DNA from: Methanosaeta sp. PtaB.Bin039 | GTDB lineage: Archaea > Halobacteriota > Methanosarcinia > Methanotrichales > Methanotrichaceae | Assembly (NCBI GenBank): GCA_002067795.1 | Contig: MVQI01000017.1 | Coordinates: 1-52,950, forward strand | Length of the DNA: 52,950 bases | Direction: 5' to 3' | Shown here: positions 36,272 through 40,133 of the stretch, in pieces | How the letters are laid out: each line of letters starts with the position of its first letter | How positions within the stretch are numbered: position 1 is the stretch's first letter | Made by a program: the position numbers and the translations under genes | Notes under the pieces: model-generated | Database searches by the model: none | Seen by the model: the letters and a program-made list of their open reading frames with translations, nothing else | What the model was told of the DNA's origin: nothing

Positions 36272-37414
36272 TCATTGCAGCCCCAGGCTTTCAGATCCTC
36301 CCTCGGAACCGAGGCCGGTGCAGAGGCACCTTCCGCCAGACCAGTGGCAAGATGGGTTATCCTCGCACTGCTCCTGTGGCGATGGAGATGGCTCAGGCAT
36401 AGGCTCGGGTCCAGGCATGGGCTCCGGCTCAGGGGGGTTGAGTCCTCGACAGTAACAGTGCCCGTTTGACCAGCTGCACTGTGGATTGGACTCGCACTGT
36501 GTCTTCTCCGGGTCCTCGGGGTTGAGCCCCCGACAGTAGCAGTGCCCGTTTGACCAGCTGCACTGTGGATTGGACTCGCACTGTGTCTTCTCCGGGTCCT
36601 CGGGGATCAAGCCACGGCAATAGCAATGGCCGTTGAACCAGTCGCATTCTGGATTGGACTCGCACTTCTCCTTTGGGGTTGGGGGTCGCAATCCTCGGCA
36701 GTAGCAGTGACCGTTCGACCAGCTGCACTGTGGGTTGGACTCGCATCTCTCCTTGGGAGTGGGCTGTGGCTGAGGCGGCGATACCTGGTAAACATCGACC
36801 ACCAGCATGTTGCTCTGCTGGTCCCCGATATAGAAGACCGACTTATGCCTTCCGGGGATATCCGCATAGAACCATAAGTAATAGTAGCCGGGAGCGACCG
36901 GCATCAGGCTATACAGCTTCACGTAGCCGCCAGGGTATATCTCGTAAAGGTCGATGGGGTCGTAGGTGGGCACGTAGATGAGCTCCCTGGCCCATCCGCC
37001 CAGCGGCAGGCTGGCATACCAGGACCATCCCATTGCCCTCTCGATCCAGAGCCCGGCAAAGCTATCCTGTATCAGAGTCGAGAAGGTATCCCAGCCGAGG
37101 TAGCTGCCCTGATAATATATGTAGTCCGGGGAAAATTCAGCCAGGTCGGTGGGCTGCGGACCAGTCAGCTGATCCGCTGACGGGGCCTGATCGGTATAGA
37201 CTGCCTGTTCAGTTCCAGCGTCTGATAGTGTCGTTGTCGGCGCACCTGTCTGAACCTCAGCGCTTAACCAGGCGCTGGGAGAGGATATGGACTCGAATTG
37301 GGACTGAGTAAGGTTCTCAGCCCCCACCTCCGCTGTGATATCGTACCCTCCCAGGGATGTGCCCATCAGGAGCAAATTCATCAACATTAAAGCGGCAATT
37401 TTGCTGCTATTCAC
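36272..37414 (-). CDS. Secreted protein with five cysteine-rich repeats
   Basis: A 380-residue exported protein. The signal peptide is MNSSKIAALMLMNLLLMGTS. Residues about 25-215 are a Thr/Ser- and Tyr-rich domain of unknown fold (YYYLWFYADIPGRHKSVFYIG). Then five repeats follow from about residue 224 to 365, each CESNPQCSWSNGHCYC or close (C-X5-C-X6-C-X-C), beginning at about 224, 251, 279, 307 and 350 and joined by Pro/Glu-rich linkers such as NPEDPEKTQ. Twenty Cys in a regular pattern point to disulfides or metal sites outside the cell. Minus-strand TATA TTAAATATATT (37484-37494) and an AGGAGAGAG ribosome site support expression. Confidence 0.8.
   Translation of the reverse strand: MNSSKIAALMLMNLLLMGTSLGGYDITAEVGAENLTQSQFESISSPSAWLSAEVQTGAPTTTLSDAGTEQAVYTDQAPSADQLTGPQPTDLAEFSPDYIYYQGSYLGWDTFSTLIQDSFAGLWIERAMGWSWYASLPLGGWARELIYVPTYDPIDLYEIYPGGYVKLYSLMPVAPGYYYLWFYADIPGRHKSVFYIGDQQSNMLVVDVYQVSPPQPQPTPKERCESNPQCSWSNGHCYCRGLRPPTPKEKCESNPECDWFNGHCYCRGLIPEDPEKTQCESNPQCSWSNGHCYCRGLNPEDPEKTQCESNPQCSWSNGHCYCRGLNPPEPEPMPGPEPMPEPSPSPQEQCEDNPSCHWSGGRCLCTGLGSEGGSESLGLQ
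36437..36745 (-). repeat. Direct repeats coding the Cys-rich units
   Basis: Repeats 3 and 4 are almost identical at the DNA level with an 84-bp period; for example CAGCTGCACTGTGGATTGG begins at 36471 and again at 36555. Repeats 1 and 2 have diverged more, and repeat 5 (36320-36367) lies outside this block after a longer Pro-rich linker. The near identity suggests recent unit duplication. Confidence 0.8.
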
Positions 37415-38070: not shown

Positions 38071-39681
38071 TCAGGCCGGCACCATTCTCTTCAGATCAGC
38101 CTCCACCGTCGTCTGAGGTTTGATGTCGAAGCTTTCCACCAGGACCTTGAGAACCCCGGGGGAGACGAATGCAGGCAGGCTTGGGCCGAGGGTGATGTCC
38201 TTTACCCCCAGGCTGAGCAAGGCCAGCAATACCAGGACCGCTTTTTGCTCGAACCAGGCGATGTTGTATGATATCGGCAGCTCATTTATCCCCATGCCTA
38301 AGGCGCCTGCCAGGGCCTGGGCGACAGCCACCAGGGAGTAGCAGTCGTTGCACTGACCTGCATCCAGCAAGCGGGGGATGCCGCCTATCTCGCCCAAGGG
38401 CAGCCTGTTGTAGCGATACTTGGCGCACCCTGCAGTGAGGATGACAGTATCCGAGGGAAGGGCCTGGGCGAACCTGGCGTAGTAATCGCGGCTCTTGTGG
38501 CGGCCATCGCAGCCGGCCATGACTACAAACCTCCTTATGGCCCCGCCCTTTATCGCGCCGATCACCTCATCTGCCAGGGCAAGGACTGCGTCATGGGCGC
38601 AGCCGGTGATGACGGTTCCGTCCTCAAGGTTCTTTGGGGGCGCAGAGAGCCGGGCCTGCTCGATCACGGGGTTGAAGTCCTTATTGCCGTCAGGTCCTGT
38701 CGGGATGTGTTTGAGCCCTGGAAATCCAACCGGTCCGGTTGTATAGACCCGCGTGGCGTAGCTTTCCCGGGGCGGGACGAGGCAGTTGGTGGTCATGAGT
38801 ATGGGGCCGTTGAACTGCTCGAACTCTTCCCTCTGAAGGGGCCAGGAGCCCCCGTAGTTGCCCACCAGGTTGTCGTATCGCTTGAAGTAGGGGTAGGCAT
38901 GCGCAGGCAGCATCTCGCCGTGGGTATAGACGTCAACGCCAGATCCTTTTGTCTGCTCCAGGAGCATTGCCAGATCCTTCAGGTCGTGGCCGCTTATCAG
39001 GATGCCTGGCCTATCTCCTGCTTTGGTGCTCACTGATGTGATCTCCGGCTTTCCATATGCCTCGGTATTGGCCTGGTCAAGCAGGGCAAGGGCTCTGACT
39101 CCGGTGCTGCCGCATCTGAGCACCCAGGCTGTCATATCCTGTGCAGAGAGGTCTTGCAAGGTGGATGCCAGAGCCTCCTGTATGAACGTCTCGATCTCGG
39201 CATCCCGCTTACCAAGCACAGCTGCATGATGATAGTAAGCCCCAAGTCCTTTGAGGCCGCAAATCAGGATCTGTTGCAGGGAGCGCACGTCCTCATTTTC
39301 CGTGCTAAGAACTCCGACGGTGGCGGCCTTGCTGGCCAGGTCTTCAGCCGCCGCCGGCTTCCAGGTGCAGGCATCGGATTCATCAGTGCCGGCGGGCGGC
39401 AGAGAGTCCCGCAGCAGCAGCGTCTTGTATATGATATCCTGGAAATAGGCAGGATCGAAGTTCACATTGGTCAACGTCTCGAACAGCCGCTCTGCCACGA
39501 ATATGCCCACGTCGTCCCGGCCCTTGCCGGCCTTTGCAGCGCTGAGGTTTCTTATCGACAAGCCCTTCAGCAGGTATACCAGCAGATCCTGCAGCTCTGC
39601 CGTACTCGCGTCTTTCCCGCAAACTCCTGCCTTGGTACAGCCCTGGCCGCCGGCAGTCTCCTGACACTGGAAACAGAACAT
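38071..39681 (-). CDS. hcp: Hybrid cluster protein (Hcp)
   Basis: The 536-residue Fe-S protein historically called hydroxylamine reductase; Hcp proteins reduce NO or hydroxylamine and protect anaerobes from nitrosative stress. The N-terminal MFCFQCQETAGGQGCTKAGVC gives CX2CX8CX5C for the cubane cluster. Hybrid-cluster ligands are seen in GHDLKD, YTHGEMLPAHAY, TTNCLVPP, TAGCAKYRY and GQCNDCYS. ATG 39681 (MFCFQC) follows GGGAAGTGA; the frame extends to 39720, into the control region. Transcribed away from the HxlR-type gene, which probably controls it. Confidence 0.95.
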   Translation of the reverse strand: MFCFQCQETAGGQGCTKAGVCGKDASTAELQDLLVYLLKGLSIRNLSAAKAGKGRDDVGIFVAERLFETLTNVNFDPAYFQDIIYKTLLLRDSLPPAGTDESDACTWKPAAAEDLASKAATVGVLSTENEDVRSLQQILICGLKGLGAYYHHAAVLGKRDAEIETFIQEALASTLQDLSAQDMTAWVLRCGSTGVRALALLDQANTEAYGKPEITSVSTKAGDRPGILISGHDLKDLAMLLEQTKGSGVDVYTHGEMLPAHAYPYFKRYDNLVGNYGGSWPLQREEFEQFNGPILMTTNCLVPPRESYATRVYTTGPVGFPGLKHIPTGPDGNKDFNPVIEQARLSAPPKNLEDGTVITGCAHDAVLALADEVIGAIKGGAIRRFVVMAGCDGRHKSRDYYARFAQALPSDTVILTAGCAKYRYNRLPLGEIGGIPRLLDAGQCNDCYSLVAVAQALAGALGMGINELPISYNIAWFEQKAVLVLLALLSLGVKDITLGPSLPAFVSPGVLKVLVESFDIKPQTTVEADLKRMVPA

Positions 39682-39773
39682 ATGATCACTTCCCGGGAGG
39701 TGACAATCGTCACCTCTCATGGTATACTAAAGATACCAATCTATATATGCTATGAAGTTTCCGGAAGTATACC
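39682..39773. promoter_or_regulatory. hcp / HxlR divergent control region with paired operators
   Basis: In 92 bases there are a perfect inverted repeat GGTGACAATCGTCACC (39699-39714), the motif GGTATAC (39721-39727) with an inverted partner GATACC (39732-39737), and another inverted copy GTATACC (39767-39773) immediately before the regulator's ATG. CTATATATG (39741-39749) is a TATA box for the regulator. GTATAC-type half sites suit a dimeric HxlR repressor; the positions would block both genes. Confidence 0.65.
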
Positions 39774-40133
39774 ATGCAGGATGGATGCACCGTAAACCGG
39801 ACCGTCCAGTACGTTGCCCGCAAGTGGACCCTCTTGATACTGCTTGAGCTATACAAGGGAGTGAACCACACCAGGCGTTTCTCAGAGCTAAAAGCCTGTC
39901 TGTCAGGCATAACTCAGAAGGTGCTCTCCGCCAGGCTGAAGGAGCTCGAGCGGGAGGGGCTGGTTGAGAACCGGGTGGATGCCACCACCCGCCCGGTCAA
40001 GAGCGAGTACACGCTCACCGATAGCGGCCTGGAGATCATCGAGATTGTGAAAGCGATGAAGCGCTGGGCCCTGCGATGGAAGATCACCAACATCGAATGC
40101 AGCTGCCAGGATTGCAGCCAGTGCGTTCTGTGA
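39774..40133 (+). CDS. HxlR-family winged-helix regulator with Cys-rich tail
   Basis: A 119-residue HxlR-type transcription factor. It has the family's N-terminal Cys (MQDGCTVNRTVQYVARKWTL) and helix-turn-helix segments (RRFSELKACLSGITQKVLSARLKELEREGLVENR). Many HxlR proteins sense oxidants or electrophiles through that Cys. Here a second feature is an added C-terminal cluster, ECSCQDCSQCVL, with four Cys that could bind a metal or Fe-S centre. Divergent from hcp and preceded by GTATACC sites, so it probably controls hcp and itself. Near-leaderless start. Confidence 0.88.
   Translation: MQDGCTVNRTVQYVARKWTLLILLELYKGVNHTRRFSELKACLSGITQKVLSARLKELEREGLVENRVDATTRPVKSEYTLTDSGLEIIEIVKAMKRWALRWKITNIECSCQDCSQCVL

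Follow-up and report, generated by a model that had tools for sequence, protein, structure and literature searches.

The hcp–hxlR locus and its relatives

The window, by which we mean the whole stretch of 52,950 bases analysed, carries a gene for hybrid cluster protein (hcp, 38071–39681, minus strand, with its coding part at 38074–39681 and its stop at 38071) and, divergent from it, a gene for an HxlR/DUF24-family regulator (hxlR, 39774–40133, plus strand). A gap of 92 bases (39682–39773) lies between the two. The 119-aa regulator matches Pfam PF01638 with an E-value of 5.8e-24 and 84.2 bits, compared with a curated cut-off of 20.8. HxlR, HTH_34, PadR and HTH_63 are the only Pfam profiles found in it at E ≤ 0.001; the Rrf2 and CRP/FNR profiles are absent at this threshold, and its own genome holds no second match to the regulator at E ≤ 1e-3. 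The 536-aa Hcp matches NF003658 (hydroxylamine reductase) and TIGR01703, both well over the cut-offs (for TIGR01703, 693 bits versus 360.8). Its N-terminus shows the arrangement C-x2-C-x8-C-x5-C and its N-terminal domain is full-length, which places it in the class I type by the criteria for classes I and III taken from PMC10210160 (in excerpt). A second ATG at 39720, upstream of the annotated start and adding 13 residues, would be an alternative start of hcp; the neighbours' Hcp proteins begin at or near MFCxQC. Elsewhere in the window lies a 380-aa ORF (36272–37414) in which a Cys-rich unit resembling CESNPQCSWSNGHCYCRGL occurs five times.

Orthologues of the regulator are present in 32 of the 50 genomes of the window's order and are 72–100% identical along the full 119 residues. 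When 237 genomes of the class were searched with a profile, further matches came up in family f7, which we take to be Methanosarcinaceae, at E-values of about 1e-36 to 1e-45. At the level of the phylum, a cut-off of E ≤ 1e-22 yields matches in 116 of 392 genomes. The lowest-ranking of these, a partial match, still reaches 4e-41, and nothing lies between this value and the cut-off. Five further families have orthologues (f9, f17, f20, f27 and f28), which are presumably Methanomicrobiales, and G454 is presumably Methanocorpusculum labreanum. The 72 loci read comprise 32 from Methanotrichaceae, i.e. every orthologue-bearing one among the 50 genomes of the order, and two hand-picked sets, 20 from Methanosarcinaceae and 20 from the five further families (19 genomes, two loci being from G403). 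In a tree of 75 sequences, with 119 columns and long outgroup branches, the Methanotrichaceae form one clade (100/99), which joins a Methanomicrobiales-like set (99/96).

Within the order, 22 of the 50 genomes have both hcp and hxlR, 10 have hxlR only, one has hcp only and 17 have neither. In the five families, with cut-offs of 1e-22 and 1e-40 and among the matches listed, both genes are found in 47 genomes, hxlR only in one, hcp only in none and neither in 31; Fisher values on such co-occurrence ignore the relatedness of the genomes. The hxlR-only exception G357 keeps the start of hcp beside hxlR (L220), with no hcp match at the cut-off among those listed. Among the matches listed for other families of the phylum, 22 hcp-bearing genomes are without an orthologue at the cut-off. 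Judged from sequence, the locus is part of a conserved archaeal module.

The divergent neighbours of hxlR were ranked with seven query proteins only, and a nearer gene of another family may be passed over (L169, L176). On this basis, the nearest divergent match in the 72 loci is Hcp in 40, NIR_SIR in 14, DUF166 in 8, an unknown protein in 3, a ferredoxin-type protein in 2 and a cupin in 1, with none within 900 bp in 4. Hcp holds this place in 19 of 32 Methanotrichaceae loci, 4 of 20 Methanosarcinaceae loci and 17 of 20 loci of the five further families. DUF166, NIR_SIR or others take it in 13/32 Methanotrichaceae and 16/20 Methanosarcinaceae loci, and NIR_SIR, ferredoxin, cupin and DUF166 genes are recurrent in the hxlR clusters. 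Because of these other divergent partners, and because no hcp was found in 10 of the 32 Methanotrichaceae genomes with hxlR, the regulator is probably not for hcp alone. In L059, L061, L063 and L079, a DUF166 gene and then one for a 218-aa NIR_SIR protein are divergent from hxlR, and a functional link for DUF166 through the hxlR clusters appears possible. At L158 and L162 (Methanosarcinaceae), a second NIR_SIR-like gene lies between two copies of hxlR, both of which keep the Cys tail described below. A protein of about 280–294 aa adjoins hxlR or hxlR-type leaders in L060, L069, L073, L125 and L385; it is found with hcp and a copy of the operator in L060, L069 and L125, and the L125 copy is without a Pfam match.

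The window Hcp shares 60–68% identity with 15 of the 16 Hcp proteins read from the five families (55% with L222), 55–59% with the four hxlR-neighbour Hcp proteins of Methanosarcinaceae and 42–45% with the 17 short class III-type Methanotrichaceae Hcp proteins that are long enough to compare. Hcp proteins elsewhere in Methanosarcinaceae reach up to 62% full-length identity with it, among the matches listed. Since different Hcp proteins (class I versus class III type, about 43% identity) stand behind the same operators, regulator and Hcp would be functionally coupled. Where the other Methanotrichaceae loci read that have hcp (L049–L079) carry a short Hcp of class III type, the window carries one of class I type; the hxlR leader is of the same kind, and the window hcp may represent a gene swap under one promoter. 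Three further arrangements were seen. L047 (G047:C60) has a broken hxlR near a class III-type hcp; L125 (G001:C20) has an hxlR-type leader with both operators near a class III-type hcp and is without hxlR; and in G238 (L216 and L239) a transposase-like ORF separates hcp from hxlR, the hcp side having two GTAT-N7-ATAC sites.

Candidate operators at hxlR and at distal hcp genes

Two candidate operators are found in the control region. O2 (39721–39737, GGTATACTAAAGATACC, core GTAT-N7-ATAC) includes GTATACTAAAGATAC at 39722–39736 and lies at the expected transcription start of hcp, upstream of the hxlR TATA box. This TATA-box element (39741–39748, plus strand, CTATATAT) is assigned by position and consensus, and its complement can probably serve hcp, which would give a two-way promoter common to hcp and hxlR. 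O3 (39757–39772, plus strand, GTTTC-N6-TATAC) ends one base before the hxlR ATG, across the expected hxlR transcription start, with the motif GTATACC abutting the ATG; the hxlR transcript is predicted to be leaderless. With one mismatch allowed, GTATACTNNNGATAC has no further match in the window (0.04 expected). The hcp leader also contains a palindrome, GGTGACAATCGTCACC (39699–39714), which is probably not an operator of the HxlR regulator and was rejected as such: its exact form GGTGAC-N4-GTCACC is found in 13 of the 50 genomes of the order and, of their hxlR loci, solely at that of the window's genome. The sequence around it, GAGGTGAC-AATC-GTCACCTC (39697–39716), is a perfect 8-bp inverted repeat that does not occur at the other hxlR loci of the order and may fold into a hairpin in the hcp mRNA.

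The order GTAT-N7-ATAC (O2), TATA box, GTTTC-N6-[GT]ATAC (O3) and ATG recurs in the hxlR leaders, which were anchored on the ATG without gaps and pooled to 71, L210 being omitted as the expected form of its start was not found. In this pool, GTTTC at −17 to −13 and ATAC at −5 to −2 reach 90%, the O3 form is present in 63 of 71 leaders and an exact GTAT-N7-ATAC lies upstream of the TATA box in 53 (30/32 in Methanotrichaceae, 11/20 in Methanosarcinaceae and 12/19 in the others). The 32 Methanotrichaceae leaders, 31 of them distinct, align on the ATG without gaps. The mean pairwise identity of the distinct ones is 0.79 from −53 to −1 versus 0.31 from −90 to −54, and the third codon positions of hxlR, at 0.59, fall below the proximal value; the conservation of these leaders exceeds chance. 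The corresponding values for the other two groups are 0.60 and 0.59 versus 0.41 and 0.43. The exact sequence GTATACTNNNGATACNA has 20 sites in the 50 genomes of the order and none in a reversed control; 17 of the sites are at hxlR, and the other three belong to copies of the hxlR leader that lie close to hcp genes of class III type.

Sites of the same two forms are also found away from hxlR. Forty distal hcp regions were hand-picked among the matches listed (39 from Methanosarcinaceae and one other). Within 350 bp, GTAT-N7-ATAC is present in 14 of them, with a Markov expectation of 0.26 and a background of 5 in 585 tiles. GTATC-N6-GAAAC, which is O3 reversed, is likewise present in 14 of 40, and O3 in either direction in 1 of 585 tiles. 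Either operator is found in 22 of the 40 regions, or in 18 of 36 when the four that had prompted the test are excluded; in G188, G203 and G221 these prompting sites, which are matches to GTATMTTTWKGATAC, lie 27, 95 and 131 bp before the distal hcp, and in G132 about 0.8 kb before it. Neither exact form is found in 18 of 40, and where hcp has a second paralogue, that copy may lack the operator. Control of hxlR by its own product alone beside an incidental neighbourhood would account for the conserved leaders through auto-sites, but it seems very improbable against the sites at distal hcp promoters, the near-perfect co-occurrence in five families and the two Hcp types in one slot.

The composite GTATC-N6-GAAAC-N6..12-TATAT occurs at 127 distinct places in 236 genomes of the class, counted after merging, compared with a raw count of 16 for the reversed control. 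As its half-site is GTATA and not GTATC, the window's own O3 stands outside this count. Of the composite sites, 62 are at hxlR starts and 41 precede hcp genes in one orientation, mostly far from hxlR. Already listed hcp genes follow 26 of the sites, with the same orientation in 26/26; a remainder of 39 includes 15 before hcp (match starting within 900 bp), two more with hcp 0.9–1.3 kb on, two that precede an unknown gene (about 290 codons), and 20 without such a gene ahead, close to the control count. These numbers bear on whether O3 is a site of the regulator at all. It could belong to another factor, because its spacer has six bases compared with five in GTATA-N5-GATAC, and its left half-site is different as well; O3 (GTTTC-N6-KATAC) would then be that factor's site or a core-promoter element, with HxlR binding GTAT-N7-ATAC only. 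We regard this as quite unlikely, since general promoter elements are expected everywhere and O3 with its TATA-like stretch is concentrated at hxlR and hcp (103/127), the other 24 places being near the control of 16.

The position of the sites concerns the direction of control. At distal hcp genes, reversed O3 equals GTAT-N7-ATAC in frequency. It precedes a TATA-like stretch there and is 88–136 bp upstream of the hcp start. The B. subtilis HxlR is moreover called an activator in PDB entries 7bzd and 7bze. The HxlR protein could thus be an activator or dual regulator of hcp, with O3 upstream of the hcp TATA and O2 only tuning hxlR. We consider this rather unlikely, as the distal GTAT-N7-ATAC is placed past the TATA-like stretch and over the expected start, which suits repression, and as O3 covers the expected start in the hxlR leader. 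We infer binding by a dimer, and repression over activation.

A wide regulon was rejected: with two mismatches, the loose palindrome GTATNCTNNGNATAC is no commoner in the window's genome (206 + 187) than in a reversed control (224 + 231). In a scan of 392 genomes with GTATMTTTWKGATAC, there are 50 sites versus 9 in the reversed control, among the sites listed; 18 of the 50 are at hxlR loci and 32, above the control of 9, are elsewhere. Of 17 such non-hxlR sites read, 12 fall inside an ORF of at least 70 codons.

At the sequence level, the regulation of hcp by the HxlR protein is strongly supported. The first-pass annotation had proposed such control through GTATAC/GATACC sites, and the divergent pair with its 92 bases, these sites and the GTATACC at the ATG were all confirmed; the conservation of the leaders and the sites at distal hcp genes agree with its proposal. 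The GGTGAC palindrome that it had included in the control was not borne out, being without conservation at the hxlR loci of the order.

Conserved cysteines and fold of the regulator

The regulator has Cys5 and a C-terminal tail, ECSCQDCSQCVL. In an alignment of the 32 Methanotrichaceae sequences, Cys5, Cys42, Cys109, Cys114 and Cys117 are invariant, and Cys111 is variable, being Cys in 25 sequences and Ser or Asn in 7. When Methanotrichaceae and Methanosarcinaceae are taken together (29 sequences), the invariant Cys are reduced to Cys5, Cys109, Cys114 and Cys117, with Cys42 invariant only within Methanotrichaceae. The C-x4-C-x2-C tail is present in all 72 orthologues read, across seven families. 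It does not occur within the last 40 residues of any of 20 HxlR paralogues taken from these and related genomes. An N-terminal Cys was found by script in 71 of the 72 orthologues, and the remaining one (L170, whose start is outside the slice) also has it. A ligand set of four Cys confined to the tail, as the first-pass annotation had supposed, was rejected, position 111 never being Cys in 21 aligned Methanosarcinaceae sequences. The conservation of the tail Cys in orthologues, a test set beforehand, held for C-x4-C-x2-C and failed for Cys111. By their conservation, the four-Cys set is Cys5 plus the three tail Cys, and it would be large enough for a cluster as in [4Fe-4S] NO sensors with three or four invariant Cys; the more general idea of a Cys-based sensor gains support from this set.

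The AlphaFold2 model of the regulator shows a winged-helix core with a mean pLDDT of 77. Residues 1–5 and 108–113 are below 50, and the model was dropped as proof of a ligand site, the tail being modelled without confidence. The best Foldseek matches are 4hqe (QsrR, from a QsrR–DNA complex, in first place), 2fsw, 1z7u and 7bzg (HxlR), and the top 25 include HxlR, YodB and HypR. QsrR, YodB, HypR and HxlR share with the regulator the Pfam family and the winged-helix fold, and have palindromic operators of the GTAT..ATAC type like its candidate sites; the QsrR motif is GTATA-N5-TATAC. Unlike these four, the regulator is archaeal, linked to hcp and equipped with the invariant C-x4-C-x2-C tail.

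The closeness to the thiol switches HypR, YodB and QsrR fits a different use of the same Cys. The regulator and regulon would be the same, and the four Cys would bind Zn, either structurally or in a way that redox chemistry can undo, or would act purely as a thiol-disulfide or persulfide switch, with no Fe-S and with an oxidant, electrophile or sulfur stress as the signal. Cys5 aligns with HypR Cys14, and Cys42 of Methanotrichaceae is one residue off the HypR Cys49 column (HypR numbering according to the printed alignment); HypR Cys49 has a role in a disulfide, and YodB pairs an N- and a C-terminal Cys across the dimer. HypR Cys14, CatR Cys7 and YodB Cys101 were found modified, and YodB Cys6 is termed redox-sensitive, its peptide not being detected (PMC6943732, in excerpt). 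The nitrite/sulfite-reductase-like protein as an alternative partner also fits sulfite. A disulfide switch needs two Cys, however, and four that are invariant across the loci of seven families suit a four-ligand set better. We rate the thiol or Zn reading as a serious possibility that stays somewhat short of probable; whether the ligand state is Fe-S, Zn or a disulfide, we can only infer.

Proposed mechanism and its meaning

As O2 and O3 flank the TATA region and each lies over one expected start, the simplest model is that the same dimer represses both genes. In the resting state, an HxlR/DUF24 winged-helix dimer would sit on O2 and O3 on either side of one two-way TATA region, and its binding over the expected hcp start (O2) and the expected hxlR start (O3) would silence both genes. 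The four-Cys centre, Cys5 with C109-x4-C114-x2-C117, would most likely draw on two subunits, as the cross-dimer Cys pairing of YodB and the NsrR cluster, with its N-terminal ligand from the partner monomer, suggest. It would report NO, nitrite-derived or redox stress, and the DNA would be released when the centre is lost or oxidised. Hcp, or in relatives the small nitrite/sulfite-reductase-like protein, would then clear oxidised nitrogen (or sulfur) species. Hcp acts on NO and hydroxylamine, and NIR_SIR proteins act on nitrite, sulfite and hydroxylamine. Because the two share oxidised-nitrogen substrates, a nitrosative signal is somewhat likelier than a purely oxidative one; sulfite is possible as the signal. 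Against a role of NO, a methanogen Hcp elsewhere is abundant and its NO source is not known (PMC10210160, in excerpt). On balance, we think it reasonably probable that the HxlR protein is a dedicated hcp regulator and autorepressor that senses nitrosative or redox stress through its four-Cys centre.

As regulators of hcp in bacteria, PMC1274295 (in excerpt) names HcpR, NsrR, NorR and DNR, and it offers no archaeal one. HcpR, a CRP/FNR protein of anaerobic bacteria, controls hcp and ferredoxin-like genes and is often beside or divergent from hcp; it differs from the regulator in protein family and operators (PMC1274295, in excerpt), and its signal is the binding of NO to haem (PMC12750200, in excerpt). 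NsrR (Rrf2 family) likewise controls hcp, in enterobacteria (PMC1274295, in excerpt), and its [4Fe-4S] cluster is held by three Cys and Asp8 of the other monomer (PMC5411485, in excerpt). As a working analogy, this ligand set may be compared with Cys5 and the three-Cys tail, the fourth ligand being Asp in NsrR and Cys in the regulator, and the protein families being different. ArnR of Corynebacteria is a winged-helix repressor of hmp with three conserved Cys and an NO-responsive [4Fe-4S] cluster (PMC12343034, in excerpt). Unlike the regulator, it has a separate C-terminal sensory domain, and the term 'HxlR' is absent from its text. The Hcp of Methanothermococcus thermolithotrophicus is, like that of the window, a methanogen Hcp of class I (PMC10210160, in excerpt); 'HxlR' is absent from the text of that paper too. 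Among the titles and abstracts listed from the openly licensed literature, with subscription journals mostly outside, no description of an HxlR-type hcp regulator was found, and within this scope the first-pass annotation's 'not yet described' is not contradicted.

We tentatively suggest a new archaeal class of Fe-S nitrosative-stress sensor in the HxlR family, in which a [4Fe-4S] or similar cluster would link the N-terminal Cys of one subunit to the partner's C-x4-C-x2-C tail. Such a sensor would act on a two-operator two-way hcp promoter conserved from Methanothrix to Methanosarcinaceae to Methanomicrobiales; this is conceivable and still rather doubtful. A dedicated hcp sensor would in any case bring a Cys4-type member into a family known for thiol switches, and would supply archaeal genetics with a promoter that responds to redox conditions or NO. 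The role of Hcp in methanogens, and whether methanogens face NO, are stated to be open, and part of the question is said to be approachable with the genetics of Methanosarcina acetivorans and Methanococcus maripaludis (PMC10210160, in excerpt). A conserved switch would be a direct handle on what Hcp is for in methanogens, and with a sensor of defined operators, finding what releases the regulator would point to the physiological signal for Hcp. If the Fe-S nitrosative sensor is true, encounters with reactive nitrogen species, and a response to them, would be routine for these methanogens.
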